From contig NZ_JAPCIA010000001.1 of assembly GCF_026107375.2 (NCBI RefSeq), positions 1,116,001 to 1,180,000 of the forward strand: a DNA stretch of 64,000 nucleotides, given 5' to 3'. Made by a program: the position numbers and the translations under genes. This DNA comes from Sphingomonas sp. BT-65 (GTDB taxonomy: Bacteria > Pseudomonadota > Alphaproteobacteria > Sphingomonadales > Sphingomonadaceae). Below, in pieces: positions 45,118 to 64,000 of this stretch. The stretch's first letter is position 1. Each line of letters starts with the position of its first letter. Under the pieces are notes generated by a model. It was not told where the DNA came from. It worked only from the letters and a program-made list of their open reading frames with translations, and ran no database searches.

Positions 45118-45434
45118 ATGCCGACTGGCACCTTGGTAGCCAATGATCGACGTCGGGTTGCTATAGGCAGCGCTGCGACCGATTTCCAGACTGTATTACC
45201 GAAGATTGCGCCCTCCCCGCTGAATTCCGCGCTACGACCGACAAGGGCCGATAGCGGAACGACCGCTTGACGCCTGCACCGACCAGGGCGGACGTAAAGG
45301 TCATGAACGTCTACCGCCTCGGCTGGACAGCGGACGTCTGGATTAACGCCAAGGATTCTTCCAATCAGCACCACGTTGCTAATTTAGCAATAATGTGATT
45401 TCTCTGCCGCATCGAAAGCTGGCGATAGGGCAAT
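45118..45434. other. 317-bp intergenic region before the GH106 gene
   Basis: No convincing gene on either strand. The first 240 bases look like decayed or non-coding DNA (stretch GACCGACAAGGGCCGATAGC near 45235), with nothing I can identify. The last 60 bases hold the IclR-type palindrome (45376-45390) and an AT-rich promoter-like stretch ATAATGTGATTT. Confidence 0.6.
45376..45390. promoter_or_regulatory. TTGCTAATTTAGCAA operator, site 1
   Basis: A perfect 7+1+7 palindrome 44 bp upstream of the GH106 start. The same 15 bases occur at 56653-56667 before the DHDPS-family gene and a degenerate copy at 55788-55802, and both copies are followed by ATAATrTGATT. Probable binding site of the IclR regulator encoded at 55849. 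Confidence 0.75.
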
Positions 45435-48400
45435 ATGTTCAGGGACAACCGCGGCTGGAAAAGCGCTTTTGTGTTGGCTGCACTTGTGGTGACTGTTTGC
45501 CGACCCCTCTCTGCCAGCGAACTGGAGACCGGGTTCGCCTCGCCTCCACGCGAGGCCCGGCCGCTCGGCTGGTGGCACTGGATCAACGGCAACGTGACCA
45601 TCGATGGCATCGATGCCGATCTCCAGGCCGCGAAGGCGGCGGGGATGGGCGGCGTGCAGATGTTCGATGTCGAGATCTACGCCCCTCCGGGGCCGGTGCG
45701 GTACGGCTCCGATCGCTGGTTCGCGCATGTGCGTCACGCGATCCGGCGCGCCGCGGCGCTCGGGCTCGAATTCCATGCGATGAACACCCCCGGCTGGTCA
45801 GCGAGTGGCGGGCCGTGGGTTACGCCGCAACGCTCGATGAAGCGCCTGGTCTGGAGCGAGACCGATGTTTCAGGTGGCGCCGTGTCGGCATCTCTTCCGC
45901 GCCCGGATCTGACCCTCGCTTACCCCGAGCGCGCGGTCCCGGCACAGCCCTTCTACGCCGACATCGCCGTGATTGCAGTGCCTGCCGGGGTTCCGCGCAT
46001 CGCGGATATCGACAAGAAGATTGGCTGGGGCCGCAAACCCGTCACAAGGGACACGCGGACGCTGCCAGGGATCCCGGCGGATCGTGTCATCGTTCTTTCC
46101 GGCAAGATGGATGCTGCCGGAGGCCTAGTGACAAAGCTGCCGCGCGGAAACTGGACGATCCTCCGCTTCGGCTACACGACGACAGGCAAGACCAACCATC
46201 CTGCGCAACCCGAGGGCCACGGGCTTGAGATCGACAAGCTCGACGCCGCCGCCGTCGCCTTTCAGTTCGATCAATCGTTGGGGAGGATGATCCGCGAGGC
46301 CGGCCCGCTCGCTGGAAACACGTTCAACGCGATCCTGTTCGACAGTTTCGAAGGCGGATACCAGAACTGGACCGCCGCGATGCCGACGGAATTCGCACGG
46401 CTGAAGGGTTATTCGCTGCTTCGCTGGCTACCCGTTCTCACGGGGCGCGTCGTGGAATCCTCCGCGGCGAGCGAGGCGGTGCTGTGGGATTTCCGCCAGG
46501 TGATCGAGGAGCTGATCGCCGAAAACTATCTCGGCACGATGCATCGCCTGGCAGCCCGGCACGGGATGAAAATCTACTCCGAATCCCAGGGCGGTCCCCT
46601 CACGCCGATGTCGGCCAATCGACATGTCGACGTGCCGATGAACGAGTTCTGGATGCCCGACGCGACGCCACGCGCCGCCAGCATCCGGATGACGACCTCT
46701 GCGGCTACCTTCCTCGGCCGCAGGATAGTGGCAGCCGAGGCCTTCACCGCCACGCCAGAGAATGGACGATTCCAGAATACCCCGGCAAGCCTCAAGCGCG
46801 CGGGCGACCACGCCTTTGCGCTCGGGCTGAACCGGTTCGCCTTCCACAGCTACACGCACCAGCCAGTGACCGAGGCCGCGCCGGGGTTCGGCCTTGGCCG
46901 CTATGGCACGCATTTCGGCCGGCTCAACACTTGGTGGCCCTTTGCCGGCGCCTGGGTCGAATATGTCTCGCGCAGTCAGTTCCTGCTGCAGCAGGGCACC
47001 CGCGTCGCCGACGTCTGCTTCCTGGTCGACGAGGATCTGGGTTACGCGCTGCCCAAAGCCATTACGAGTTCACTGCCCGGCCACGACTTCGAGGTGGCTT
47101 ATCCCGCCGACGTGCGCGCCATGTCGGTCGAGCGTGGCGTGCTCAGACATCCGCAGGGCGCAGCATTCCGCCTGCTCGTCACGCCCGAGCCACAGACCTC
47201 CGCGGGCTGGGTCGCGGAGATCGCGACGCTCCGAAAACTCGTGTCGCTGGTTCGGGCAGGCGCCACGCTTGCCGGCCCCGCACCGGCCGCCCCTGCCGGC
47301 CTCAATGACGTCGAACGCCGGGAAGAATATGACCAGCTCGTCAGCGAGCTGTGGAGCGGATTGCCGACGCGCGGCTTCAAGCGTGTGGGCGAGGGCAAGG
47401 TCTATGCCGGCCTGACGCCTGCTGAAATTCTGCGTGCCGAGAAAATCGCGCCCGACATTCGCTGGGACGCACCGATGGAGCAGCTGCGCTTCCTCCATCG
47501 CCGAACGGGCGATGCCGATATCTATTTCGTGTTCAACTACTCGGATCAGCCGCGGCAATCCCGGCTCGAATTGCGCATCCCCGATCGCGTGCCTGAGATC
47601 TGGAATGCGATGCATGGAACGCGGGCCGACGCGCCGACGTTCGGGCGCACCGCCACAGGCGTGTCGGTGCCGGTGCAGCTCGAGCCCTGGGGCTCGACAT
47701 TCCTCGTTTTCCGCAGGCCGTTGGGAACCCGCTGGATTGCGGGCGCAAATGCCGCCGGCCTCAACTTGCTGGACCGGCCCGGCGCGATGCTGACGCAGGC
47801 GCGATCGGCACGGTTGAAGCTGTCGGATGGATCGGATCGCGACGTCTCGCTCCCCGCGCTTCCTGCGCCGGTGGCGCTCGACCGGGATTGGCGGGTGGAG
47901 TTTCCGACGCTGGGCACGGCAGGTGTATCTCGGCCCCTCGATCGGCTCGCATCATGGAGCGAAAACGCCGATCCGGCGATCCGCTACCATTCGGGAACGG
48001 GAGTCTACCGCACCCGCGTAGAGCTTCCGGCGGTGCGCGACGGAATCGTCGCGATGCTCGATCTCGGCCGCGTGGCGGACATCGCCCGCGTCAAAGTGAA
48101 CGGACGCGATGCCGGAATCGCGTGGAGCCCACCCTTCCGCTTGGACGTCACGCCCTATCTGCGTGCAGGCACCAACACGCTCGAAATCCACGTCGCGAAC
48201 CGCTGGGTCAACCGTCTGATCGGCGATGAGGCGATTCCCGTGAACCTGGAATATCAGAAAAATGGGAGCCGCTTCACCGACGGGCGCATCACCAGCCTTC
48301 CCGCTTGGCTTTATCGCCCAAATGGTCGCCGCGAATGGCCGCGGCACAGCTTCGCCACCTGGAAACACTATGAGGCCGGCGCATCGCTGCTGCCCGCTGG

Positions 48401-48458
48401 GTTGCTGGGGCCGGTGAAGATCGAATGGTGGCAGGAAATTTCGCCCGCCATCAAATAA
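45435..48458 (+). CDS. Alpha-L-rhamnosidase, GH106 family, secreted
   Basis: 1007 residues with a signal peptide (about 1-28, ending PLSASE). The N-terminal block PLGWWHWINGNVTIDGIDADLQAAKAAGMGGVQMFDVEIY and DRWFAHVRHAIRRAAALGLEFHAMNTPGWSASGGPW is typical of GH106 (family of the Sphingomonas rhamnosidase RhaM). A TIM-barrel-like core follows, then a C-terminal sugar-binding beta-sandwich (VKVNGRDAGIAWSPPFRLDVTPYLRAGTNTLEIHVANRW, about 885-925). It releases terminal L-rhamnose from glycosides or polysaccharides in the periplasm or outside. The 15-bp operator lies 44 bp upstream. Confidence 0.9.
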   Translation: MFRDNRGWKSAFVLAALVVTVCRPLSASELETGFASPPREARPLGWWHWINGNVTIDGIDADLQAAKAAGMGGVQMFDVEIYAPPGPVRYGSDRWFAHVRHAIRRAAALGLEFHAMNTPGWSASGGPWVTPQRSMKRLVWSETDVSGGAVSASLPRPDLTLAYPERAVPAQPFYADIAVIAVPAGVPRIADIDKKIGWGRKPVTRDTRTLPGIPADRVIVLSGKMDAAGGLVTKLPRGNWTILRFGYTTTGKTNHPAQPEGHGLEIDKLDAAAVAFQFDQSLGRMIREAGPLAGNTFNAILFDSFEGGYQNWTAAMPTEFARLKGYSLLRWLPVLTGRVVESSAASEAVLWDFRQVIEELIAENYLGTMHRLAARHGMKIYSESQGGPLTPMSANRHVDVPMNEFWMPDATPRAASIRMTTSAATFLGRRIVAAEAFTATPENGRFQNTPASLKRAGDHAFALGLNRFAFHSYTHQPVTEAAPGFGLGRYGTHFGRLNTWWPFAGAWVEYVSRSQFLLQQGTRVADVCFLVDEDLGYALPKAITSSLPGHDFEVAYPADVRAMSVERGVLRHPQGAAFRLLVTPEPQTSAGWVAEIATLRKLVSLVRAGATLAGPAPAAPAGLNDVERREEYDQLVSELWSGLPTRGFKRVGEGKVYAGLTPAEILRAEKIAPDIRWDAPMEQLRFLHRRTGDADIYFVFNYSDQPRQSRLELRIPDRVPEIWNAMHGTRADAPTFGRTATGVSVPVQLEPWGSTFLVFRRPLGTRWIAGANAAGLNLLDRPGAMLTQARSARLKLSDGSDRDVSLPALPAPVALDRDWRVEFPTLGTAGVSRPLDRLASWSENADPAIRYHSGTGVYRTRVELPAVRDGIVAMLDLGRVADIARVKVNGRDAGIAWSPPFRLDVTPYLRAGTNTLEIHVANRWVNRLIGDEAIPVNLEYQKNGSRFTDGRITSLPAWLYRPNGRREWPRHSFATWKHYEAGASLLPAGLLGPVKIEWWQEISPAIK

Positions 48459-48536
48459 ATTGCTTTTATAGTCACATTTAAGATATGCTCCGATCGCGAC
48501 CGGCACCACAAGCTGGCGCGAATCGGAGGAGAGGAA

Positions 48537-49928
48537 ATGACTAAACGTGCTAAGCTGCTCGTTGCCGGCGCAGTGTGCCTGACCGGCGCCGCGCTCGCAT
48601 CCTCTGTATCTATCATAGCGTCAAATACGACTGCGGACTCGGGCAGGATTGAGCTTCCGCCGTCGCAACCGCAAACAGCCTCGGCCGGTTCAGGGCCCGC
48701 CACCGGGGCGACCGCGATGTCCGTGACCAGCCTCGCGGCGCCCACACTACAAATCCCCAGCGGGTCGCCGATCGAGACCTTCCACGACGCCGATCTCGAG
48801 AAATGCGGGACGACGCCAGTCCGGCAGGACGGTCCGCTGCGCGTGTTCGAGGATCAGTTCAACGTTATCCACATGACGATGTCGAACGCCGACGCCAAGG
48901 GCTACCAGTGGACCGGATCGGTGACCGGTTTCACCAACAACCCCACGACCGCCGAACTCGACTGCACGCCAGTGATGATCGGCAATGTCGGCAACACCGA
49001 CGTCTCCAAATTCGACCAGAAAACCTGGATTCAGGGCTTCTACTTCGACGGCACCACCGCCTGGGCCTATGGGCACCAGGACTTTTGGGGCGGTCCGCCG
49101 CGTTCCACCAATCCCAACTGCCATGCGTCGGGCGTCGAGGATGACAAGAACGGCTGCTGGTACGCTTCGATCGCGACGTGGAAGGCGAACCCGGTGTCGA
49201 GCGCGGACCGGCACTTGAACTTTACCCGCAACGGCACGGCGCCGAACCACATCGCCATCTATCCGCACGTTCAGTACCCCGGCGACTTGCAAACCCCGAA
49301 ATCCGGCTGGATCGGCTATGGCGCGCCCTCCAACATCTTCCGCGGCCGCAACCAGGACGGCACGGTCGACGGCTATTGGTACATGTTCGTCTATACCAAC
49401 TCCGGCCACGGCGGGCAGGCGAAGGGGCAGTGCCTGTTCCGCAGCAGCAATCCCGCCGACCGGACGAGCTGGCGGGCATGGAACGGCAACACGACCACGC
49501 CGGGGTTCACCCAGGTCATGGGTAATCCCTACACCACCACCAACTCGACCTGCGCAGTGGTGCAGCCGACGCTGTTCAATACCTATGTTCGCAGCGTCGT
49601 GTGGCATAAGCCGTCACGCCACTATATCGCGATCTACCGCGTCGGCGCCGACGGGGTCTATTGGGCGACCTCGCCCGACATGCTCAATTGGACCCAAGGC
49701 GGGGAGTTGCTCGCTTCGGACAGCGACGCCGCGAGCTACCCGGTGCTGATCGATTTCGACGGCGGCGATTGGGGCGACAGCAATTTCGACCGCGCCTATG
49801 ACAACGGCAAGCTCTACCTCTTCTATCGCAAAAAGATCGCCGGGACGAACAACATCCGCATCACCCGGCGGCTGGTCGACGTGACCAACTATCCGGCCGA
49901 TCCGCCCAGCTCGAGCAATCCGGGCTGA
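48537..49928 (+). CDS. Secreted beta-propeller-like protein, possible glycoside hydrolase or lyase
   Basis: 463 residues. A signal peptide or membrane anchor (about 8-28, AGAVCLTGAALASSVSI) and a Ser/Thr/Pro-rich linker to about residue 75 precede a repeated-strand domain. Repeating short units such as TWIQGFYFDGTTAWAYGHQDFWGG, VDGYWYMFVYTNSGHG, HYIAIYRVGADGVYWATSPDMLNWTQGG and YDNGKLYLFYRKK look like blades of a five-bladed propeller as in GH43/GH32-type enzymes. I cannot assign a family or catalytic residues. A purine-rich GGAGGAGAGG site precedes the ATG. Cysteines are common, fitting disulfides outside the cytoplasm. Confidence 0.7.
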   Translation: MTKRAKLLVAGAVCLTGAALASSVSIIASNTTADSGRIELPPSQPQTASAGSGPATGATAMSVTSLAAPTLQIPSGSPIETFHDADLEKCGTTPVRQDGPLRVFEDQFNVIHMTMSNADAKGYQWTGSVTGFTNNPTTAELDCTPVMIGNVGNTDVSKFDQKTWIQGFYFDGTTAWAYGHQDFWGGPPRSTNPNCHASGVEDDKNGCWYASIATWKANPVSSADRHLNFTRNGTAPNHIAIYPHVQYPGDLQTPKSGWIGYGAPSNIFRGRNQDGTVDGYWYMFVYTNSGHGGQAKGQCLFRSSNPADRTSWRAWNGNTTTPGFTQVMGNPYTTTNSTCAVVQPTLFNTYVRSVVWHKPSRHYIAIYRVGADGVYWATSPDMLNWTQGGELLASDSDAASYPVLIDFDGGDWGDSNFDRAYDNGKLYLFYRKKIAGTNNIRITRRLVDVTNYPADPPSSSNPG

Positions 49929-49944
49929 CCGGGCAGAACCAACG

Positions 49945-49970
49945 CGCCCGCGCCCTTAGCGGCGCGGGCG
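49945..49970 (+). terminator. Terminator hairpin after the propeller-like gene
   Basis: CGCCCGCGCC (49945-49954), loop CTTAGC, GGCGCGGGCG (49961-49970), then TTT. A perfect 10-bp stem 16 bases after the stop at 49928. It overlaps the last bases of the convergent SGNH gene and may serve both directions. Confidence 0.75.
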
Positions 49971-51155
49971 TTTGGGATAGAGCAGGTCGAGCGGCACCGC
50001 CTGTGCCATTGCGCGATACCCGACGGGCCCCGGATGCAGCCGGTCGCCGCTGTCATAAGCCGGACGCAACGCCAGCGGATCAGCGGGATCGCCGCCGATC
50101 CGGTCGAAATCAATGACGGCGTCGTACAAAGGGCTCGCGCGGATGAACTGGTTGAGCGCGGCGCGCACCCCCTCGCGCTCAGCGGTAAAGCCTTGGCGGC
50201 GCGTGGGCAGCAGCGTCGCGCCGATCACGCGCAGGCCGCGAAGCCGCGCACGCAGCGCGAGCTGGGCATGCGCCTGGATCAGCGCCTCCGCGGCGATCGG
50301 CGTGCCGTAGATGTCGTTGATCCCCTCGAACAGCACAAGCGTGTGCACGCCGGGAAGCGCCGCGATATCGCGATCGAAGCGCGCGAGCGCGTTCGGGCCC
50401 GCACCTGGGCGCTGCGCCGTGATCCGATTACCCGAGATGCCGAGATTGGCGAGGCCCAGAGGCAACGCACCGGACGTTGCCGCCACGCGTCTGGCCAGGG
50501 AATCCACCCAGCCCTGATAGCCGCCGCGCGGCTCGGAGCCGCTGTCGGTGATCGAATCGCCGAGAAAGGCGACGGTGCCGGCATTGGACGCGCCCTCGCC
50601 CACCAGCGCATCGACGAAGAACCAGTGCGGCACGCGTGTCGGGAACGCCGCTGCGTCCTCCACCGCGTCGAAGTCGCCGGGCGCGGATAGCCACGACCAG
50701 TCCTTGGGACGCAGATGCCCGGTGACACCAGCCGGCCTTCCCCGCACCGCGACGCTCGCGAGCAGATCGCTCCCGGCTGCGACAGACAGCGGCGCCGGAT
50801 CGCTAATCACGCTCGCGCCCGCGGGAATGAGGATCGAGCGGCGGCCGCCGAGGGTGAGCGGGAGGTTCGTGCCGGGCCGCACCGTCGCGTCGGTCTGGCG
50901 GAGACCGAGATGCAGCGAAGCGATCTCGAGCGGCTCGACGCCAAAAGCATTGCTGATCCGCAGCCGCACCTTCGGCGCGCCTGCGGTGGCGCGTAGAGCG
51001 AGTCGCACCGTCTGGTCGGCAATCGCATAATCGAGCCGGTCGGTCGCGGTCGCCCAGAGCGTGAAGGGTGCTGGACCGGAACGCGCCGGTACGCGCGCGG
51101 CGGCTGCAATCGGGCAAGCGGCAATGGCGACGAGCAGCGCCCGCCGGTCGATCAT
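49956..51155 (-). CDS. SGNH/GDSL hydrolase, exported
   Basis: 399 residues. Probable signal peptide (about 1-21; possibly Tat-like, MIDRRALLVAIAACPIAAAA, with two Arg). An N-terminal beta domain (about 30-185) precedes the SGNH domain: block I FLGDSITDS with Ser201, block II NLGISGNRI, block III FEGINDI and block V DSGDRLHPG with the Asp/His pair. All four blocks are intact. Likely a carbohydrate esterase or acetylesterase acting on the imported glycan. Last gene of the overlapping operon (ATGA with dgoA). Confidence 0.92.
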   Translation of the reverse strand: MIDRRALLVAIAACPIAAAARVPARSGPAPFTLWATATDRLDYAIADQTVRLALRATAGAPKVRLRISNAFGVEPLEIASLHLGLRQTDATVRPGTNLPLTLGGRRSILIPAGASVISDPAPLSVAAGSDLLASVAVRGRPAGVTGHLRPKDWSWLSAPGDFDAVEDAAAFPTRVPHWFFVDALVGEGASNAGTVAFLGDSITDSGSEPRGGYQGWVDSLARRVAATSGALPLGLANLGISGNRITAQRPGAGPNALARFDRDIAALPGVHTLVLFEGINDIYGTPIAAEALIQAHAQLALRARLRGLRVIGATLLPTRRQGFTAEREGVRAALNQFIRASPLYDAVIDFDRIGGDPADPLALRPAYDSGDRLHPGPVGYRAMAQAVPLDLLYPKRPRR

Positions 51156-51793
51156 TGCGCCGGCTCGCCCAGCGCCCGCCAGCCGGCGACGACCGCCCGC
51201 GCACGCTCGGCGGTTTCCGCGACCGGCTGGTCCGGCCGGTAGAGCGCCGTGCCGATCCCGAAACCCGTGGCGCCCGCCTTGACGAACGCGGCATAGCCAT
51301 CCTCGGATATGCCGCCGACGGCATAGATGGGAAAGTGCTGCGGCAGCACCGCACGCCAGGCGGACAGCGTCTCCGCGCCGAGCGCACCGGCCGGGAACAG
51401 CTTGAGCGCCGCCGCGCCGGAATCGATCGCGGCAAAGGCCTCGCTGGCGGTCGCGACACCCGGCATGGCGGCGAGACCCAGCGATGCGGCACGCGCGATC
51501 ACCTGGCCATTTGTGTTGGGTGCGAGGATCAGCATGGCGCCCGCGTCAGCGGCGCGTTCAAGCGACGGCGTGTCCAACACCGTCCCCGCCCCGATCATCG
51601 CGCGATCGCCGAACGCTTCCGCCAGCGCCGCGATGCTAACGAAGGCATCGGGCGAGTTGAGCGGCACCTCGATCATGGTGAAGCCAGCGTCGAGCAACAC
51701 TGCGCCCGTCTCTACCGCTGCGTTCGGCGTGATCCCTCGCAGGATGGGAATCAGCGGCAGCCGCGCGCTCGCCTGTTCGAAGGATGGAGTCAC
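51152..51793 (-). CDS. dgoA: 2-dehydro-3-deoxy-6-phosphogalactonate aldolase (KDPG aldolase family)
   Basis: 213 residues from a GTG start, which overlaps the SDR stop (GTGA). Class I aldolase of the Eda/DgoA family: LPLIPILRGITPNAA, Glu42 in TMIEVPLNSP, GAGTVL, APNTNGQV and the Schiff-base Lys131 in AALKLFPAG. Splits a 6-phospho-2-keto-3-deoxy sugar acid into pyruvate and glyceraldehyde-3-phosphate. The DgoA assignment over Eda rests mainly on the neighbouring dgoK. Confidence 0.9.
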   Translation of the reverse strand: MTPSFEQASARLPLIPILRGITPNAAVETGAVLLDAGFTMIEVPLNSPDAFVSIAALAEAFGDRAMIGAGTVLDTPSLERAADAGAMLILAPNTNGQVIARAASLGLAAMPGVATASEAFAAIDSGAAALKLFPAGALGAETLSAWRAVLPQHFPIYAVGGISEDGYAAFVKAGATGFGIGTALYRPDQPVAETAERARAVVAGWRALGEPAQ

Positions 51794-52521
51794 CGCCGCG
51801 TGATCCCCGCCCCGCCATCGATCCCGACCACGGTGCCGGTGATCCAGGCCGCGGCATCGGAGGACAGGAAGAGGATGAGGTCGGCCACTTCCTCCGCGGT
51901 GCCGAGGCGGCCCAACGGATGCCGGAGCACATTCGCGGCGCATGCCGCGGCGGGATCGGGCGCGCGAGCGAACGAGGCGCGGAGCATCGGGGTATCCACT
52001 GACGCCGGCGCGACTCCGTTGGCGCGGATGCCGCTGTCGGCGACTTCGAGCGCGAAGGTCTTGAGGAAGGTCTCGAGCCCGCCCTTGGAGGCGGCATAGG
52101 CGGCGAGCCCTGGCGCGCCCATCCGCGCATTGATCGACGAGACAAAGGTAAACACCCCCTTCCCCGCGCGCTGCATATCCGGCGCGAAGGCCTGCGCGAG
52201 GCGGAGGGCGCCGCCGACATTCACGTCGTACACGCGCAAGAAGGCGGCCGGCGACGACTGCAAGGTGCCCGCAAACTCGGTCGTCGCGGCGGCGTGGACG
52301 ACGATCGTCGGCGCGCCGAGTCGTGCCCGGACCGTCTCTGCCGCAGCCGTCACCGCATCATCGTCCGCCAGATCGCAGGCAAGCGCCACATCGCCGACGG
52401 ACGGTACCCGGAGGTCGAGCGCGGCGACGCGCGCGCCGGCGGCGGCGAACCGCGCGCAGACCGCTGCGCCGATCCCACCCGCGCCGCCGGTCACCACCGC
52501 AATCTCCCCGTCAAGCCGCAT
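51790..52521 (-). CDS. SDR family oxidoreductase, probable sugar dehydrogenase
   Basis: 243 residues. NAD(P)-binding TGGAGGIG at about 11-18, Ser near 129, and catalytic Tyr142-x3-Lys146 in AAYAASKGG. C-terminal ITGTVVGIDGGAGITRR is typical of classical SDRs. An ATG six bases further upstream exists, but GGAAGG sits six bases before the chosen codon. From context it may oxidise an aldose to the lactone for the galactonate-type pathway; this is inference. Confidence 0.88.
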   Translation of the reverse strand: MRLDGEIAVVTGGAGGIGAAVCARFAAAGARVAALDLRVPSVGDVALACDLADDDAVTAAAETVRARLGAPTIVVHAAATTEFAGTLQSSPAAFLRVYDVNVGGALRLAQAFAPDMQRAGKGVFTFVSSINARMGAPGLAAYAASKGGLETFLKTFALEVADSGIRANGVAPASVDTPMLRASFARAPDPAAACAANVLRHPLGRLGTAEEVADLILFLSSDAAAWITGTVVGIDGGAGITRR

Positions 52522-53578
52522 CGACATCCTTCCAGCTCAGCGCGCCGCCCCATGCCACATCGCGCACGGACCGCCCATCGGCCGTGAACAACGTGGCTTC
52601 GATCCGCGTCGCGCGGCGCTCGCCCGGAACGAGGGTGATCGCGGTCCCGCGCGCGGCAGCATCTGCCAAAGACGGCAAGTCACAGCATGGTTCGAGCGCC
52701 AGCATCGTCCGCGCGCCATACCATGGATAGCCGTCGCCGCCGCCGAGCAGACGCCAATAGCCGAGCAGCGGGAAGAGCGTCTCGTCCCAGCGCACCGCCA
52801 CGCCCGCACCGCGCCGTGGATTTCGCACCGCGAACCAGCCGCTCGCCATCTCCTCGCAACGCACGAAGTCCTGGGCGTTGTCGCGGTCACCCGGGATGAT
52901 CGACAAATCCTGGTCGACGAGCGTCGGCCAGGCCGCGCGCGTGCCCGGTTCGAGGGTTGCAGCAGGCGGCGGGGTCTCGGCAGTGACGATGGTGCAGGCG
53001 GGCAGGTCCACCGCGCTGCCCGCTTCGATCAACGGCGCGCCGAAGGTCGGATGATGCCCCCACAGTACCTCCAGCGGGTGCGCCGCTTCGCTCGAGACCG
53101 CCTCGTCGATGATCAGCGTGGCGCCCGCTCCATCCAGCGCGATACGCCGCTCAATCACCACCGGCGTCCGCCGGAGCCGCGCCCAGGTCCGAATAGCGAC
53201 GCCGCATTCGTCGTCGCGTTCGATCGCATATTCCCAAGCGAGGAAGGTTGCTTCGCCGTGCTGCCCATAACTCGCGCCGCGATGCTCGCAAGGGCCGGGA
53301 CCATTGGGTAGCATCACATACCAGCCGCCGGGGAACTGGTCGCGAAAGGCGCCGACCGCCAGCGATGACGAGGCAATGGCTCCAGGCGGCGCCAGCCCTG
53401 CGGGTGCCAGGTGAAGCGTCTCGGTGTCGCTGGGCTTGTGGGTGAGTTCGACGAGATCGCAACCCTTGTCGAGCACGAAGACCGCGCGCAGCAGCGCATT
53501 CTCAAGGCTGACGCAGCGATGGCCGCGCCAGACGAACTCGCGCAGCCGGGCGCCATGATTGCGGTGCGGACCGGTCAC
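52511..53578 (-). CDS. Aldose 1-epimerase-like protein (DUF4432-type)
   Basis: 355 residues, beta-supersandwich fold. Supporting pieces: FVLDKGCDLVELTHKPSDTE, GGWYVMLPNGPGPCEHRGASYGQHGEATFLAWEY, VLWGHHPTFGAPL with the paired His expected in the active site, and LFPLLGYWRLLGGGDGYPWYGARTMLALEPCC. DUF4432 proteins act on sugars in catabolic operons, but reactions differ. The ATG overlaps the MFS stop by four bases, and its own stop overlaps the SDR start. Confidence 0.85.
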   Translation of the reverse strand: MTGPHRNHGARLREFVWRGHRCVSLENALLRAVFVLDKGCDLVELTHKPSDTETLHLAPAGLAPPGAIASSSLAVGAFRDQFPGGWYVMLPNGPGPCEHRGASYGQHGEATFLAWEYAIERDDECGVAIRTWARLRRTPVVIERRIALDGAGATLIIDEAVSSEAAHPLEVLWGHHPTFGAPLIEAGSAVDLPACTIVTAETPPPAATLEPGTRAAWPTLVDQDLSIIPGDRDNAQDFVRCEEMASGWFAVRNPRRGAGVAVRWDETLFPLLGYWRLLGGGDGYPWYGARTMLALEPCCDLPSLADAAARGTAITLVPGERRATRIEATLFTADGRSVRDVAWGGALSWKDVDAA

Positions 53579-54795
53579 TGGCGTGCCTCCACCGGTTTGC
53601 CTGCAGTCGCGCGCGCGATCAGCCAGCCGATCGGGTGCAACGCCGCCATCACCAGAAAGACGGTGCCATAGTCGCGCGTCGCGGCGAAAGCGCCGACGAG
53701 CTGGGTCGAGATAATGCCGCCGATCCCGCTGCCGGCGGCGATCAGCCCGAAGATCGTCGCCACCCGCGCCTGAGGGAAACGATCGACCGCGAGCGTGGTC
53801 AGGTTACCGAGGAACATCATATGCGACAGCGCCACCAACGCGGCGAGCCCGTAGGTAACCGGAAGCGAAGGCTGGAATGCGATCAGCGCCCCCAGCGGCG
53901 CCAGGCAGGCGCCCATCCCCATCACCCTGAGGCGCGACGCGATCGGCGCCGCGCCACGGCGGACGAATCGGCCCGACAGCAGCCCACCGCCCACGCTCCC
54001 GATATCCGCGGCGAGATAGACGAGCCAGGCCGTCGCGGCGATCGCAGCGAGCGGAAGCCCGCGCGCGTCTCCCAGATATTTGGGGAACCAGAACAGGTAG
54101 AAATACCAGACCGGATCGGTGATCGTCCGCGCGAGCGCGAGACCCCAGACCGACTTGTCGCTGAGGATCGCCCCAATCGAAGGTTTCTCGGCCGCTGCGC
54201 CGACGGCCGTCTGGCTCGGCTGGCCATGGCGCAGCACCAGCCACGCCGCCATCCACACGAATCCCAGCGCACCGGTCGCCACGAACGCCGTGCGCCAGCC
54301 ATAGCTGAGCGCGAGCCAGCCGATCAGCGGCGGCGCGATGGTCGCGCCCACCATTGCCCCGGCGGTATAGACGCCGACCGCGAAGCCGCGTTCGTGCGGC
54401 GCATAATGTTCGGAGACTGCCTTGGGCGCGGCGACGTAGTTGCCCGCCTCGCCAAGCCCGAGCGCGAAGCGCGCCGCGCCGAGCTGGCCGGCGCTATGGA
54501 CCAGCCCCGTCACCATATTGGCAATCGACCACCAGCCGACGAACAGCGCCAATGCGAGCTTCGAATCGAGCCGGTCGGTGATCCATCCGACGACGAAATA
54601 GGCGAGCGTATAGGCGATCAGGAAGAGCTGGACGACATGCGCGTAGCCGATGTCGTCGATCCCAAGGTCAGCCTGGATCGTGGTCGCCAGGATCGAGAGC
54701 GTCTGGCGATCAACATAGTTGAGGACGGTCGAGAAGAAGAGCAGCGCGAGAATCGCCCAGCGCACCTTCGAACCTGGCTTGGCGCCAGCGCTCAT
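53575..54795 (-). CDS. MFS transporter, ACS (galactonate/hexuronate) family
   Basis: 406 residues, 12 helices. NYVDRQTLSILATTIQADLG at the start, the MFS signature GWITDRLDSKLAL and LGLGEAGNYVAAPKAVSEHYAPHERGFAVGVYTAGAMVG match the anion:cation symporter branch (DgoT, ExuT). A proton-coupled uptake of D-galactonate or a related sugar acid is likely. The start at 54795 is fixed by the ATGA overlap with dgoK; the longer frame simply reads through dgoK out of phase. Confidence 0.92.
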   Translation of the reverse strand: MSAGAKPGSKVRWAILALLFFSTVLNYVDRQTLSILATTIQADLGIDDIGYAHVVQLFLIAYTLAYFVVGWITDRLDSKLALALFVGWWSIANMVTGLVHSAGQLGAARFALGLGEAGNYVAAPKAVSEHYAPHERGFAVGVYTAGAMVGATIAPPLIGWLALSYGWRTAFVATGALGFVWMAAWLVLRHGQPSQTAVGAAAEKPSIGAILSDKSVWGLALARTITDPVWYFYLFWFPKYLGDARGLPLAAIAATAWLVYLAADIGSVGGGLLSGRFVRRGAAPIASRLRVMGMGACLAPLGALIAFQPSLPVTYGLAALVALSHMMFLGNLTTLAVDRFPQARVATIFGLIAAGSGIGGIISTQLVGAFAATRDYGTVFLVMAALHPIGWLIARATAGKPVEARQ

Positions 54796-55739
54796 GCCGA
54801 CACCGGTTGCGTATGTCCGGCCAGCGCGGCAAGTCCCGCCAGGCTGGCTGCATGGACGTCCGCCATCGCGTGGACAACCCCGAGGCGATCGAGCACGGCC
54901 GCATAGAGCAGTGAGAGTGCCGGAGCGCCAATCAGGGTGACATGATCCACGGGCTCGCCCGCTGCCGCCAGTGCGGCGAGGGCGTCGCGTATCTCGCAGC
55001 CGATTAGCAGACCGGATAGATAGGGACGCGCGGCTTGAGGCGATAGCGATCCGGTGACGCGCAGGCTGCGCGCGGAAAAGATGGCGTGCTCGACTGCGAG
55101 CCGCGGGTCCGACACGGCGATCTCGACGCCGCGAACGAAGGCGGGGTCGCCTGCCTCGATTGCAGTCCCCGGCGTCATGTCGCGGCCGACCAGGCTGTGC
55201 GCGACGAGGATCTCGAACATCTCGCCGGTCATGCTGGTGAAGAAGCGCGTGACGCGCGCGTCCGTGACGCTGCACCACTTGGCATGAGTGCCGGGCAGGC
55301 ACAGCGTCCGGCGCCCCCCTGCCCCGGCCTGCGCCAGCCACCCGAAGACCTGCGCCTCCTCGCCGCGCATCACGTCCGGCAGGCCGAAGATGTTGGTGCA
55401 GGACAGCCCCGGCACGATCGCCACCGGCACCCCTCGCACCTCGAAGCGCGTCATTCGCGCCGCAAGGTCGTCGAGGCCCGCCGGGCACGGCGCATAGGGG
55501 CAATCGACCCAGCCGATGTTCGATCCCACCATCCCGGCCAGCACGACCGGCAATGGACCATCGCGATCGATCCATGCACCCGCGACATCGAAAAACGCCG
55601 CTTCAGGATTGTCGCAGAATTTGATGCCCAGCCCGCTGGCGGTTTCGAGAATCCGTGCGGGCGCGCCGGTCTCGCAGAGGTACAGACGCATGAAGCTGGA
55701 GCCCCAGTCGCCCGCGATGAAACGCCCTGCTGCTGCCAC
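54792..55739 (-). CDS. dgoK: 2-dehydro-3-deoxygalactonokinase
   Basis: 315 residues from a GTG start; GGGAGG lies five bases before it. Phosphorylates 2-keto-3-deoxygalactonate at C6. The family features are clear: FIAGDWGSSFMRLYL at the N-terminus, ETASGLGIKF, VVLAGMVGSNIGWVDCPYAPCPAG, DVMRGEEAQVFGWL, LCLPGTHAKWCSV and a glycine-rich LSGLLIGCEIRDAL near the end. First gene of the six-gene overlapping operon. An operator-like palindrome lies 48 bp upstream. Confidence 0.95.
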   Translation of the reverse strand: MAAAGRFIAGDWGSSFMRLYLCETGAPARILETASGLGIKFCDNPEAAFFDVAGAWIDRDGPLPVVLAGMVGSNIGWVDCPYAPCPAGLDDLAARMTRFEVRGVPVAIVPGLSCTNIFGLPDVMRGEEAQVFGWLAQAGAGGRRTLCLPGTHAKWCSVTDARVTRFFTSMTGEMFEILVAHSLVGRDMTPGTAIEAGDPAFVRGVEIAVSDPRLAVEHAIFSARSLRVTGSLSPQAARPYLSGLLIGCEIRDALAALAAAGEPVDHVTLIGAPALSLLYAAVLDRLGVVHAMADVHAASLAGLAALAGHTQPVSA

Positions 55740-55787
55740 GCACACCTCCCACATACGGCCCCAACGCCGGCCTCTGCGCGATAAATG

Positions 55788-55802
55788 TTGCGAATTTAGC
55801 GA
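55788..55802. promoter_or_regulatory. TTGCGAATTTAGCGA, degenerate IclR-type operator, site 2
   Basis: Matches the consensus TTGCTAATTTAGCAA with two changes (T to G at position 5 and A to G at position 14) and lies in the divergent region, 48 bp before dgoK and 46 bp before the IclR start. Position and spacing suit autoregulation and control of the operon. Confidence 0.65.
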
Positions 55803-55848
55803 CAAGTCAATCCGAGCTTGCCATAGATCGATTGCGCTCGGCAGTCGC

Positions 55849-56619
55849 ATGGATCATGTCTGCCGTGCGAGTGACCATGTGAAGGAAGCGCCGGCAGTGC
55901 GGCCCAAACCTAACGCCCAACCCAACCAGAGCCTTATCGACGGCATTGCCACGCTCCAGGCGCTGGCCGTCTCACCGGAGCCGATCGGGAATCGCGAGCT
56001 TGCCCGCAAGCTCGGCTTCAACCCCACTCGCGTCAACCGGCTGCTCAAGACGCTCGCCTATCTGGGGATCGCGCGGCAGACCGCGAACCGCAAATACACC
56101 GCGGGTCCTGGCATGCATGTGCTTGCGGCACAAAGCCTTTTCGCATCGCGCTTCGTGCAGAACGCCATGCCCGCGCTCGAGGAGCTGCGGCGCTTCGGAC
56201 TCACCATTGCAATGGGCGTATTGTGGAACCACGATGTGAGCTACCTGTTCCACGCGCCGCCAGGGATGGAGACGGCGCAGGCGCTTGGCCGCATCGGCCT
56301 GCTTCCGGCAAGCGAGAACGGCATTGGCGTCGCCCTGCTTGCGGGGTTCGACGACGCGCACGTCGTCGAGCTCTACGAAGGCGAGGACGTCCCGGGCTAT
56401 CCGCGCGGGGTAAACGACCTGCTCAACACCCTCGCCGAGACGCGCGCGCAAGGATATGCGCGCGTTCGCGTCGGCGAGAACCAGGACCGGCACACCATTG
56501 CGATCGGCGTCTCCGATCCAGCTTTCGCGGCGATCGGCATGTCGGGATGGATTCCAGAGGAAGCCACGCCCGAAATCGTCACCGCCTTGCGCGAGGCAGC
56601 CGCCAAGATCGCCGAATGA
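55849..56619 (+). CDS. IclR family transcriptional regulator
   Basis: 256 residues. N-terminal winged HTH at about 27-85 (SLIDGIATLQALAVSPEPIGNRELARKLGFNPTRVNRLLKTLAYLGIARQ) and a C-terminal GAF-like effector domain (LGRIGLLPASENGIGVALLAGF; RVGENQDRHTIAIGVSDPAFAAIGMSG). IclR proteins bind short palindromes and respond to sugar acids or pathway intermediates. The three palindromes described above are its probable targets. The ribosome site is weak. Confidence 0.93.
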   Translation: MDHVCRASDHVKEAPAVRPKPNAQPNQSLIDGIATLQALAVSPEPIGNRELARKLGFNPTRVNRLLKTLAYLGIARQTANRKYTAGPGMHVLAAQSLFASRFVQNAMPALEELRRFGLTIAMGVLWNHDVSYLFHAPPGMETAQALGRIGLLPASENGIGVALLAGFDDAHVVELYEGEDVPGYPRGVNDLLNTLAETRAQGYARVRVGENQDRHTIAIGVSDPAFAAIGMSGWIPEEATPEIVTALREAAAKIAE

Positions 56620-56652
56620 GCGTTCATTGTTGCGACCACTGAAACATTTTAA

Positions 56653-56667
56653 TTGCTAATTTAGCAA
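56653..56667. promoter_or_regulatory. TTGCTAATTTAGCAA operator, site 3
   Basis: Identical to the site at 45376-45390, also followed by ATAATrTGATT. It lies 33 bp after the IclR stop and 52 bp before the DHDPS-family start, giving that two-gene unit its own promoter. Confidence 0.75.
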
Positions 56668-56719
56668 TAATATGATTGGACATCCCCGCGCCAGGGAGCG
56701 CACATGGTGAGGGATGAAC

Positions 56720-57646
56720 ATGTCGACGATCAACGGGGCTTTTCCGGTCTTGCCGACCATCTTCACCGACGAGGGTATGGTGGACGAAGCCGGGGTCCGC
56801 GCTGTCACCGATTGGGCACTCGATTGTGGTGTCGATGGCGTCGTCTTTCCCGGGCTTGCGAGCGAGTATGACCATCTCACGCTCGATGAGCGGCTACACC
56901 TGATCGGACTGATCGGCGAGCGCGTCGTGGGCCGTGCCGCGTTCGTGTGCGGCGCGGGCGGCAAGAGCGACGAAGAGAGCGAAGCGGTGATCGCCGCCGC
57001 GGCGCGCGCCGGTGCCAGCGCCGCGATGGTAGTGACCCCCGGTCGCGATGGCGTCGACAGGGACGGCCTTGCCGGCTTCTACCGACGGCTTACGGCCGCG
57101 GCGGACGTGCCGATCATGCTCCAGAACGCGCCGGCACCGATGGGCCTCGGCCTCTCCCCCGAGGCGGTGCTCGATATCGTGCGCGCAGCGCCGGGCATCC
57201 GTTATGTGAAGGAGGAGACCGTTCCCTGCGGTCAGCGCATCACTGCGTTGCGTGAGCAGGGCGAAGGACTGCTTGAGGGCGTGTTCGGGGGCGCCGGCGG
57301 CCGCTACATCACCGACGAGCTGGCACGCGGCGCGATCGGCACCATGCCTGCGGTCGAGATCGCGGATCTGCATGTCCAGCTCGTCGCGGCCCATCGCGCA
57401 GGCGATTGGGCGCGCGTGCGCTGGCTGTTTGAGCGCACGTTGCCATTGCTCAACATGCAGGCGATTTATCGCTGGCGGCTGACCAAGGAAGTGCTTCGCC
57501 GCCGCGGCCTGATCGCGAGCGCCTTCGTCCGTGCGCCGGGGCCGGCACTCGACAAGCACGACCTGCGCGAGCTCGACGAACTGCTCGAAAGCCTCGCAGA
57601 CCTGTTGACGCCCACCGAGGCCATCGCCCAACGTCGCGCCGGCTGA
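56720..57646 (+). CDS. DHDPS/NAL family enzyme, 2-keto-3-deoxy sugar acid dehydratase or aldolase
   Basis: 308 residues, TIM barrel. The Schiff-base Lys164 is in RYVKEET. The conserved Tyr of DHDPS and aldolases (YN.P motif) is replaced by Gln135 in PIMLQNAPAPMG. As far as I remember, L-2-keto-3-deoxyarabonate dehydratase has IQDAP at this point, and also shares the opening GAFPVLPTIFTDEG. So it is probably a 2-keto-3-deoxy-aldonate dehydratase and not dapA. The ATG at 56720 is preferred over one six bases upstream because GGTGAGGG needs spacing. Forms an operon with the next gene. Confidence 0.85.
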   Translation: MSTINGAFPVLPTIFTDEGMVDEAGVRAVTDWALDCGVDGVVFPGLASEYDHLTLDERLHLIGLIGERVVGRAAFVCGAGGKSDEESEAVIAAAARAGASAAMVVTPGRDGVDRDGLAGFYRRLTAAADVPIMLQNAPAPMGLGLSPEAVLDIVRAAPGIRYVKEETVPCGQRITALREQGEGLLEGVFGGAGGRYITDELARGAIGTMPAVEIADLHVQLVAAHRAGDWARVRWLFERTLPLLNMQAIYRWRLTKEVLRRRGLIASAFVRAPGPALDKHDLRELDELLESLADLLTPTEAIAQRRAG

Positions 57647-57662
57647 CCCGAGGAAGACACCG

Positions 57663-58832
57663 ATGGACGACCGGATCGAACGCATCGAAGCCTTCGTGGT
57701 CACCATTCCACGCGACACGCCCTATCTCGGGCCGCTCGGCGCGGGCGAGCAGGTCAATACGCGCGGCTATTTCGTGCGCAAGTCCAATCGCACCATCTAT
57801 CCGACGCAGGACCGTTCGGTGGTCGTCCGGGTCACCACGCGCAACGGCGTGGTCGGCTGGGGCGAGACCTATGGCCTCACCGCCCCGAAAGTGATCGGCA
57901 CCTTCATCGATGACCTGATCGCGCCGATCGTCACCGGCCGCGACCCGTTCGACGTCGCGGTGCTGTGGGAGGACCTCTACGACATCCTGCGCGTGCGCGG
58001 CTATGGCGGGGGCTTCTACCTCGATGCGGTGGCCGCGGTGGACATCGCGCTGTGGGACATCTGCGGCCGCATCGCCGGCCTTCCGATCCGCAAGCTACTC
58101 GGTGGCGAGCGGCGCCAGTCGATCCCCGCCTACATCTCCGGGCTGCCGCGCGCGACGCTCGACGAGCGCGTGGCGCTGGCGAAGAACTTCGCCGACCAGG
58201 GCTTCACCGCGTTCAAGATCGCCGCGGCGGTGAGCTGGGACGGGCTCGACCGCGAACTCGGCGCGCTGCGCGAGGCGCTGGGTCCCGAGGCGCGGCTGAT
58301 GGTCGATTTCCACTGGATGCACGGCCGCGGCGACGCCGCCCAGCTGATCCGGCGGCTCGAACGCCACGACCTCGCCTTCGCCGAAGCGCCGCTGAAGACC
58401 GAGGATGTGGCCGGGCTCGCTTATGTCGCGCGCTCGGTCACGACACCGATCGCTGCGGGCGAGGAGTGGCGCACGGTCTACGACGCCGAGCCGCGGCTCA
58501 CCGCCGGCGCGGTCGCGATCGTCCAGCCCGAGATGGGCCATACCGGCATCACCCAGTTCATGCGTATCGCCCAGCTCGCAAGCGCGCACCACATTCCGAC
58601 GATTCCGCACGCGACGATCGGAACCGGAATCTTCCTTGCCGCCAGCCTTCAGGCATCGGCGGCGATCCTCGATCTGCCGATGCACGAGTATCAGCATTCG
58701 ATCTTCGACCGGAACGCGGCGCTGCTCGACGGCGCTCTGGCATGCGAGGCGGGCGCCTATCGCCTGCCCGAGGGACCGGGCCTGGGCGTGGCGCCGGGCG
58801 AGGGCCTCTGGAGCTACGCCGAGGCGATCTGA
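57663..58832 (+). CDS. Enolase-superfamily sugar-acid dehydratase (mandelate racemase / DgoD-like)
   Basis: 389 residues. N-terminal capping domain and a C-terminal barrel. Metal-site candidates are Asp215 in MVDFHWMHG (with His217), Glu241 in FAEAPL and Glu267 in AAGEEW. A catalytic His316 lies in IPHATIG. The Lys185 of FKIAAA is not followed by the second Lys (no KxK). The DFH..H motif resembles D-galactonate dehydratase, so dehydration of an aldonate to its 2-keto-3-deoxy form is likely. The GAGGAAG site sits 9 bases before the ATG. Confidence 0.88.
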   Translation: MDDRIERIEAFVVTIPRDTPYLGPLGAGEQVNTRGYFVRKSNRTIYPTQDRSVVVRVTTRNGVVGWGETYGLTAPKVIGTFIDDLIAPIVTGRDPFDVAVLWEDLYDILRVRGYGGGFYLDAVAAVDIALWDICGRIAGLPIRKLLGGERRQSIPAYISGLPRATLDERVALAKNFADQGFTAFKIAAAVSWDGLDRELGALREALGPEARLMVDFHWMHGRGDAAQLIRRLERHDLAFAEAPLKTEDVAGLAYVARSVTTPIAAGEEWRTVYDAEPRLTAGAVAIVQPEMGHTGITQFMRIAQLASAHHIPTIPHATIGTGIFLAASLQASAAILDLPMHEYQHSIFDRNAALLDGALACEAGAYRLPEGPGLGVAPGEGLWSYAEAI

Positions 58833-61887: not shown

Positions 61888-64000
61888 TTACTTGCCGAAG
61901 CGGACGCGCACGCCAGCGGTGAAGGTGCGCCCGCCGAGCCGGTAGGTTTGCGTCGCCTCCTCGAACACACTGTAGCGGCGGTTCGGCGTGTTGGTGAGGT
62001 TGGTCGCCTCGAGATAGAATTTCACATTCTTGTTGAGGTCGAAGTTCATCGACGCCGAGAGGCTGTCATAGGGACGATAATAGGTACCGCTGCCGCCAGA
62101 CGAGATGCTGGAGAGATATTTGCTCCGCCAGTTCCAGGCGAGCCGCACGCCGATCGGCCCCTTCTCATAATAGCCGACGAGATTGACGTTGTATTTCGAA
62201 AGCCCCTGCAGCGGCAGATCCTCGCCGGTGCGCACGTCGGGGATACCGGTGCTGCTGTCGACATAGGTGAAGGTGGCATTGACCCCGAGCCCGTCGAGAG
62301 GACCCGGCAGGAAGCTCAGCGGCTGGCTCATCTGGGCCTCGAGGCCCTTGATCTTGCCGCCCTGGCCGTTGACCGTGCGGGTGATCGCGAAGAGGCCGTC
62401 GGGATTGTTCACCGGGTCCGGCGTGAAACCCGGAATCTCCTCAAAGAAGACACGCCGGTAGAGGAAGGTTTCGACGTCCTTGTAGAAAAGGGCGACCGAA
62501 TAGATCGCGCCCTTTGTCGGATAGAATTCAAGCGAAGCGTCGAGAGAGTTGACGCGGAACGGCTCGAGAGCTGGATTGCCGGCCGTAGCGACGCCCGAGG
62601 ATTCGACGACCGAAAAGGACGGCGTCAGGTCGGTGGTGTCGGCGCGCGCCATGCTGCGCGCGGCGCCCAGGCGGAGCAGCGTCCGCGGCGCCACCTCGAA
62701 GCGCAGCGACGCACTCGGCAGCCAGTCGTCATAGCGCACGAACTGGTTGTTGGGGCGCACGCTGTCGGGATCGTAGCGGACGCCGGCCCAGCCGAATGCG
62801 TCGACCTCGTTGCGCACATAGCGCAGCCCGACATTGCCCGAGAAGGGAATGCCGAACAGCGACGAGCGGAAATCGGCCTGGCCATAGGCCGCGTAGGTGG
62901 TCTCGACGAGCCGGTAGGACGAGGTCGGATCGAACAATTGGGGCTCGCACGTCGCCACGATCGCCTCGCACACATAGTCCGAGGTCCCGAGCGGCACGCC
63001 GGTCATGTAGGCGCGCGGGAAATTCCCCTCCACGCCCTCCAGGAAGTCGGGATATTCCGCGACGCGCCAGTTGCCCGGAAAGTTGGTCACCGGCGCCGAG
63101 GTGCCCGAGAAGATGACCTGATTGCGATAGGTGCCGCGATCGGAATCGACCCGGTTGTAGCGCACACCCAGCTTCACGTTGCGCAGGAAGCCGTCCAGTT
63201 CCTGGACGACATCGAGCTTCCCCGACACCTCCTTTGACGCATAGTCGAAGAAATTGTCGAACGAGGTGTTGAACACGAAGTTCGCCGGATTGGTGAGATC
63301 GAGGCCGTTGGGGAAGGTGACCGCCGGCACCAGCGCGTCGCGGAAATCGAAGGCGACGACCTGCTGGGTGCGCGTTTTGGTACTCAGATAGGACTGGGTA
63401 TAGTCCTGACTCGCCTCGGAATAGGCGAACTCGCCCGAGATCGTCAGCCGGTCGGTCACGTCCCAGCTGCCGCCCACCGCGCCCGAATAGATGTTGGTGG
63501 GGAGTTGGATGACCTCGCCATTCCCCTGGATGTTGGTCGCGCGGAAGGTGCCGGCGATCAGGTTCTCATTCTCATCGACTGTGAGCTGGGTATAGGCGCT
63601 CCCGGTGGGCTGCAGGGGGATGGCGAGCCAGTTTCGGTCGCGCACGGTATTGGCGCGCGCATAGAGGAAATCGAAATAGCCACGGAACCGCGATGACGGC
63701 GTCCAGTTGACGCTCGCCACGAGGCCAAGCTTTTCGCGCTCTTCCTCAAGGACCTGGAACCGCAAGTCGTTGATCCAGTGAACCGGCGATCCGTCGCCGT
63801 TCGGGTCGAGTGGAATGCCCGCGGGATTGTTGTTGAAACGGCTGTCGAACGGCCGGAAGCCCGTGGCGCTGTCGAACGAATCAGTGCGGATATTGAGCTT
63901 CTGATAGTTGATGCCGAACGACACGCCGAGCGTGCCGTCGAACAGCGACTTGGAGACCAGCGCGGTGCCGCGCCCGGAGAATTTGCCCGACTTGTCCTTG
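61888..64000 (-). CDS. TonB-dependent receptor (partial, N-terminus outside window)
   Basis: About 704 C-terminal residues of an outer-membrane beta-barrel receptor. The frame stays open to the right edge. Alternating aromatic/polar strands and Asn/Asp-rich loops (PLDPNGDGSPVHWINDLRFQVLEEER; GVNATFTYVDSSTGIPDVRTGEDLPLQGLSKYNVNLVGYYEKGPIGVRLAWNWRSKYL) match large receptors of Sphingomonas and Caulobacter that import oligosaccharides. The TonB box and plug domain are beyond the edge. Likely transports the substrate of the glycan cluster. Confidence 0.95.
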   Translation of the reverse strand, partial: KDKSGKFSGRGTALVSKSLFDGTLGVSFGINYQKLNIRTDSFDSATGFRPFDSRFNNNPAGIPLDPNGDGSPVHWINDLRFQVLEEEREKLGLVASVNWTPSSRFRGYFDFLYARANTVRDRNWLAIPLQPTGSAYTQLTVDENENLIAGTFRATNIQGNGEVIQLPTNIYSGAVGGSWDVTDRLTISGEFAYSEASQDYTQSYLSTKTRTQQVVAFDFRDALVPAVTFPNGLDLTNPANFVFNTSFDNFFDYASKEVSGKLDVVQELDGFLRNVKLGVRYNRVDSDRGTYRNQVIFSGTSAPVTNFPGNWRVAEYPDFLEGVEGNFPRAYMTGVPLGTSDYVCEAIVATCEPQLFDPTSSYRLVETTYAAYGQADFRSSLFGIPFSGNVGLRYVRNEVDAFGWAGVRYDPDSVRPNNQFVRYDDWLPSASLRFEVAPRTLLRLGAARSMARADTTDLTPSFSVVESSGVATAGNPALEPFRVNSLDASLEFYPTKGAIYSVALFYKDVETFLYRRVFFEEIPGFTPDPVNNPDGLFAITRTVNGQGGKIKGLEAQMSQPLSFLPGPLDGLGVNATFTYVDSSTGIPDVRTGEDLPLQGLSKYNVNLVGYYEKGPIGVRLAWNWRSKYLSSISSGGSGTYYRPYDSLSASMNFDLNKNVKFYLEATNLTNTPNRRYSVFEEATQTYRLGGRTFTAGVRVRFGK

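Follow-up and report, generated by a model that had tools for sequence, protein, structure and literature searches.

What reads the 15-bp palindrome that recurs before several operons of a sugar-acid cluster in Sphingomonas sp. BT-65, and what does it control? We addressed this question in a window of 64,000 bp, the whole stretch of DNA analysed (C1:1116001–1180000 of the 4.08-Mb genome; positions above 64000 are extended coordinates that run past its end). With a probability of roughly four in five, we judge the palindrome to be the operator for the IclR-family product of the gene at 55849–56619; this protein would repress the operons of the cluster until a sugar-acid intermediate releases it. 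We favour this reading because the motif occurs together with the IclR gene in distant relatives whose genes are ordered differently, because it is absent before comparable gene pairs in five loci that lack IclR, and because its strong copies stay in one cluster while de novo discovery in relatives recovers it.

The word TTGCTAATTTAGCAA, a perfect odd-length palindrome, occurs without mismatch at 45376–45390 (operator 1) and 56653–56667 (operator 2), both on the plus strand, and the two copies are identical across 19 bases (TTGCTAATTTAGCAATAAT). A third copy, TTGCGAATTTAGCGA at 55788–55802 (operator 3), has two mismatches to the exact word and two mismatched arm pairs. Scanning the window with up to three mismatches revealed no place beyond these three, which yield six strand-wise matches against a shuffle mean of 0.13 and a largest shuffle of 2. 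Operator 1 lies 44 bp from the GH106 ATG at 45435, and operator 2 lies 52 bp from the ATG of the DHDPS-family gene at 56720, or 46 bp from an in-frame ATG at 56714. Operator 3 sits in the divergent dgoK/iclR gap, 48 bp from the dgoK GTG at 55739 (minus strand) and 46 bp from the iclR ATG at 55849. The preliminary description of this DNA, which had placed three sites at these coordinates and distances with an IclR gene beside the third and had thought the repeat unlikely to be chance, is borne out on each of these points with the start codons that it used. A fourth strong site, TTGCTAATTTAGCCA, lies 673 bp beyond the window end at C1:1180673–1180687 (extended 64673–64687), 49 bp from the ATG of a TonB-dependent receptor gene. 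A genome-wide scan, as that description had proposed, found the motif with up to two mismatches at only these four places, all in the sugar-acid cluster and not at many unrelated loci. Three more places appeared at three mismatches; we regard these as chance level, because the reversed control gave 9 strand-wise matches genome-wide compared with 11 for the motif.

De novo discovery in relatives recovered the same word. We took 69 upstream regions, some divergent regions being counted both ways, from 19 representative loci whose IclR proteins are <88% identical pairwise, the window included. Unseeded palindromic expectation maximization on these regions converged on TTGCTAAATTAGCAA, with the extended consensus TG-TTGCTAAATTAGCAA-CA, at a log-likelihood ratio of 314.9, compared with 39.2–56.0 in eight dinucleotide-shuffled sets (120 random starts on the real set and 30 on the shuffled sets). 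The consensus was unchanged after removal of the window, L046 and the divergent duplicates, which left 46 regions. A held-out matrix from these 46 regions placed the four strong sites and two weaker ones, at 48460–48474 and extended 64810–64824, in the first six ranks among 80,986 positions; the two exact sites scored 28.2 bits, the site at 48460–48474 ranked fifth with 16.7 bits, and that at 64810–64824 scored 14.3. Scores of at least 16 were reached at five real positions, compared with 0.3 in the column-permuted control. When each locus was left out in turn, 15 of the 19 scored above all 300 shuffles, and L039 and L040 were each reached by one shuffle. The earlier proposal of a three-promoter IclR regulon stands as to a regulon of the adjacent regulator, and its count was too low: an IclR regulon with at least four promoters is supported, and the strong comparative evidence argues that this predicted regulon is real and larger than first described.

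The motif travels with the IclR gene. We collected 35 loci encoding IclR relatives (55–94% identical) from named genomes on protein similarity alone; their hosts include Sphingomonas, Sphingobium, Sphingopyxis, Stenotrophomonas, Lysobacter, Luteimonas, Dyella, Luteibacter, Massilia, Pelomonas, Brevundimonas and others. Homologs of the DHDPS, MR_MLE, MFS, SDR, DgoK and TonB receptor genes recur around the IclR gene in several orders, and the motif follows the promoters. In the nearest sphingomonads it lies 3′ of iclR and 5′ of the DHDPS gene; in xanthomonads it lies in the iclR/MFS gap and again in the divergent DHDPS/receptor gap. Allowing up to three mismatches to the exact 15-mer, 29 of the 35 stretches contain a match, although some three-mismatch matches may be chance. 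The six without one are L014, L033, L035, L037, L043 (a fragment) and L044; the matrix recovers diverged sites in L014, L035 and L037, and half-sites are visible, by eye alone, in L033 and L044. The IclR gene itself is rare: among 199 genomes of the family it was found in 2 (E 1e-20), and among 398 of the phylum in 3 (E 1e-40), each count including the BT-65 genome. In Sphingomonas sp. Root241, VirB4/TrbE-like and TrbL-like conjugation genes adjoin the IclR locus (L010:14035–17711), which may bear on the patchy spread of the module.

Promoter geometry suggests how a bound protein would act. Reading sites towards their genes gave 46 readings, which are not independent of one another. In 9 of the 46, a TTGACA-like hexamer (at least five of six letters) ended exactly 2 bp before the site, compared with 0–2 at each of 19 other offsets, and the most TATAAT-like position was, by a modest margin, the hexamer directly after the site. 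The dgoK side reads TTGACT-TG-site-CATTTA and the receptor promoter TTGACA-GA-site-CATTAT, each with a 17-bp spacer. A protein bound between −35 and −10 should exclude RNA polymerase and, since the site fills this spacer in nine readings, repression by polymerase exclusion is the best candidate mechanism; the position of operator 3 in the dgoK/iclR gap further implies that iclR would be autoregulated. In the proposed mechanism, the uninduced IclR protein would occupy about six operators over 19.4 kb and, by filling the spacer in several promoters, keep polymerase off the TonB-dependent receptor operon, the GH106 and propeller genes, the dgoK-MFS-DUF4432-SDR-aldolase-GDSL run together with iclR, and the DHDPS/MR_MLE pair. 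Release by a sugar-acid intermediate, perhaps a 2-keto-3-deoxy acid, would switch on uptake, hydrolysis and an oxidative, De Ley–Doudoroff-like breakdown of a saccharide; the gene content makes 2-keto-3-deoxy-galactonate a plausible effector.

The same protein might instead act from these sites as an activator of some promoters or of all, bringing in polymerase where a good −35 is absent. Activators exist in the IclR family, and the GH106 and DHDPS promoters would suit one, having −10-like hexamers (TAATGT/TAATAT) after the site and no recognisable −35 at the fixed offset. At dgoK and the receptor, however, the site fills the spacer of TTGACT and TTGACA promoters, a recurrent geometry that should block polymerase, and we therefore consider activation unlikely.

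It is less likely again that the motif is bound by a regulator encoded elsewhere, with the IclR gene a mere neighbour. Such a reading draws on the fact that IclR binding is deduced here from sequence, and on the only partial match of the motif to published IclR consensus types. Yet similarity to IclR was the sole criterion for gathering the loci, and it is in these that the motif is concentrated. Scanning 17 genomes for TTGCTANNNTAGCAA with at most one mismatch returned 29 near-palindromes, of which 20, including all 7 perfect ones, lie inside IclR loci, compared with 0.13 expected from length. The reversed control was commoner than the motif in 16 of the 17 genomes and is therefore no measure of clustering. 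With at most one mismatch, TTGCTANTTTAGCAA occurs in 36 of 199 family genomes, and free of mismatches only in that of BT-65. Five loci with DHDPS and MR_MLE homologs (45–59% identical) lack IclR, as judged by whole genome in two (E 1e-40) and by a 19–20-kb stretch in three; none has a site before either gene, and their best whole-stretch scores, 6.6–14.4, fall inside the block-shuffle range. Within the cluster, the candidate of another local regulator was rejected: the open reading frames scanned between GH106 and the receptor include no regulator other than IclR, and a TetR-family gene past the receptor adjoins an efflux system. The 256-aa protein meets Pfam cut-offs for the IclR family (PF09339, 32 bits against 22; PF01614, 31.3 against 24; both scored on a longer open reading frame) and falls below the equivalog cut-offs of KdgR (32.6 against 275 bits), BhcR (52.9 against 350) and E. 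coli IclR (32.8 against 380). We conclude that the mirrored word is very probably the landing site predicted for the neighbouring IclR repressor. A chance origin of the repeats, or their recent spread as copies of a small mobile sequence, which the 19 shared bases of operators 1 and 2 might suggest, is so improbable that we rule it out on the window shuffles, the genome scan and the recurrence of the motif across genera in de novo discovery.

Beyond the promoters without a −35 hexamer, and the 37 of 46 readings that lack a five-of-six TTGACA at the fixed offset, several observations count against repression by IclR through this motif. The best score of matrices with permuted columns (n = 200) was 13.8 on average and as high as 25.4, so that the operator at 48460–48474 is weak on its own. 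Among the left-out loci, L037 was reached by 35 of 300 shuffles and L035 by 6 of 300. Two more distant IclR relatives outside the training set (47 and 52% identical), L101 and L102, gave mixed results. In L101, three sites (17.6, 14.4 and 11.5) occupy 8496–8661, about 1.1 kb ahead of the DHDPS gene, and the best barely exceeds the top of 100 block shuffles (17.5); L102 lacks a convincing site, the highest-scoring one (14.7) falling inside the receptor homolog. Of the published operators discussed below, the GTT-11-AAC consensus differs by eye at three letters per arm (Y, R and Y, which are G, T and A here), and the PheR footprint scores 6.4 on the matrix, a value that 96 of 5,000 shuffles reach.

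The predicted regulon spans several transcription units. Operator 1 heads the GH106 alpha-L-rhamnosidase-family gene (45435–48458, plus strand; Pfam PF17132, 606.5 bits), and the weaker operator TTGCTTTTATAGTCA (48460–48474, plus strand; four mismatches to TTGCTAATTTAGCAA) lies 62 bp before the gene of a secreted beta-propeller protein with no assigned function (48537–49928, plus strand). No Pfam family was found for this protein, which has 60 homologs at E ≤ 1e-3 (in Sphingomonas, Stenotrophomonas, Luteimonas, Kribbella and others); in L042, too, the homolog has a site upstream. A fold search with its model (pLDDT 86.9) gave weak likeness to sialidase, GH117 and GH43, with a query TM ≤0.45 among the 50 matches listed. 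The minus-strand run is headed by dgoK, of the 2-keto-3-deoxy-galactonokinase family (54792–55739; PF05035), and continues through an MFS transporter (53575–54795; best NCBIfam match the D-galactonate transporter subfamily, 200.6 bits, below the cut-off of 395), a DUF4432 gene (52511–53578; PF14486), an SDR dehydrogenase (51790–52527; family match), a KDPG/KHG aldolase-family gene (51152–51793; PF01081, scored on a longer open reading frame) and a GDSL lipase/esterase-family gene (49956–51155; family match), neighbours overlapping by 4–17 bp. On the plus strand, iclR is followed by operator 2, which heads the pair formed by the DHDPS-family enzyme (56720–57646; PF00701) and an MR_MLE gene of the enolase superfamily, acid-sugar dehydratase-like (57663–58832; PF13378/PF02746). 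Sequence searches of solved structures found 3DZ1 and the L-2-keto-3-deoxyarabonate dehydratase 7C0C as relatives of the functionally unassigned DHDPS-family enzyme, and 4H1Z/2PPG and 2NQL/4DN1 as the closest chains to the MR_MLE enzyme. In three loci lacking the IclR gene (L105:10909–11790, L106:10644–11294 and L107:10690–11616), a second, distant DHDPS-family homolog (26–29% identical) adjoins MR_MLE.

Operator 4, with the weaker site at extended 64810–64824 beyond it, lies past the start of the receptor gene (61888–64000 and on to 64623, minus strand; TIGR01782, 396.5 bits against a cut-off of 310) and heads the receptor gene and, downstream, the gene of a 935-aa, secreted-type protein (59019–61826, minus strand). 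The latter has no Pfam family above cut-off; 806 homologs were scored at E ≤ 1e-3; Bacteroidota are named as the source of some, and a few of those listed carry PF07944. Its model (pLDDT 83.6) consists of two beta parts, one at each terminus, with a helical region between them, and matched the PDB weakly (query TM ≤0.30 among the 50 matches listed). Just past the receptor, at L008:2924–9551, begin a TetR-family gene and an RND efflux system of the HlyD/AcrB type, which mark the edge of the sugar cluster.

The enzymes point to sugar-acid catabolism in outline. A De Ley–Doudoroff kinase and a KDPGal-type aldolase are predicted from PF05035 (275.4 bits) and PF01081 (79 bits), both above Pfam cut-offs, and the MR_MLE enzyme scores 184.2 bits against a galactonate dehydratase cut-off of 311. 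For the sugar dehydrogenase and lactonase steps, an SDR is present and no lactonase was found among the window open reading frames scanned. In Lysobacter prati, a single open reading frame (L016:18922–20400) encodes a KDPG/KHG aldolase domain and, after it, an SMP-30/gluconolactonase domain. As to the substrate, sequence searches of solved structures, two structure models and fold searches gave only weak resemblances. We regard the sugar and the enzymes of the module as more interesting than the regulon itself. The analysis provides a candidate operator, ready to test, for a regulator common to sphingomonads, xanthomonads and some betaproteobacteria, and delimits one regulon. Two of its protein families, those of the 935-aa protein and the beta-propeller, have no assigned function, and it also includes an enzyme of the enolase superfamily for whose relatives structures have been solved but no specific function has been named. 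Identifying what lifts repression would point to the substrate of these proteins.

The recognition helix offers a possible link between protein and operator. Nine of 36 IclR proteins have TK[IV] in place of TRV, and the A after TTGCT carries 0.2 bits in the 14 sites of TK[IV] proteins and 1.2 bits in the 26 sites that belong to the remaining proteins. Co-divergence of helix and operator is suggestive at most, because the tree needs two changes of helix label and a single origin is possible. Aligned by eye, the R/K in PT-R/K-V/I-NR would correspond to Thr49 of TtgV, a direct contact (PMC8222616). A wider proposal, with the odds against it, is that the operators of this IclR orthologous group form a class beyond the two main types published and sit in the −35/−10 spacer, that helix and operator have co-diverged (strict palindromes for TRV, relaxed ones for TK[IV]), and that the group governs a module of patchy distribution, probably spread horizontally, which serves an uncharacterised sugar and whose dehydratase (a 2PPG/2NQL relative) and DHDPS-like enzyme are functionally unassigned.

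In literature searches that mostly covered listings, we found no paper describing this regulator, which may be listed already in the supplementary tables of PMC8222616 or in RegPrecise. Suvorova and Gelfand 2021 (PMC8222616) distinguish two main types of IclR operator, GKTYCRYW3-4RYGRAMC and TGRAACAN1-2TGTTYCA; in their account the GTT-11-AAC subgroup of group 1 has the consensus GTTYCRYW3RYGRAAC, and most site centres lie 20–80 nt before the gene start. The motif fits neither the group 1 nor the group 2 consensus, which describe main types and are no strict definition, family membership resting on the protein; it resembles GTT-11-AAC as a 17-bp odd palindrome with a GTT...AAC frame, an inner C/G and a similar site-to-start distance. 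Typed consensus sites of E. coli IclR, KdgR and AllR (as given in PMC13273656) are likewise palindromes of IclR-family carbon-use regulators, but score −6.2, −29.0 and −5.1 on our matrix. A possible precedent for such half-sites, given its weak matrix match, is PheR, which belongs to the IclR family and represses phenanthrene catabolism in Sphingobium; its footprint has a GCAACG core, contains TGCTA...GCAAC and spans −21 to +23 of the transcription start (PMC13273656). PheR is similar in being an IclR-family repressor of a sphingomonad with the GCAACG core and TGCTA...GCAAC at the same spacing, and differs in its aromatic effector and the position of its footprint. In gene context, the closest parallel described in the available text of PMC5507952 is found in Rhodobacteraceae, where IclR genes lie beside dgoK/De Ley–Doudoroff loci, and in the predicted GalR of Salinivirga fredricksonii HL-109. 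Those loci have other transporters, and the likeness is one of gene context; there, as here, an IclR-family gene clusters with dgoK and is proposed to encode a sensor of a sugar acid.

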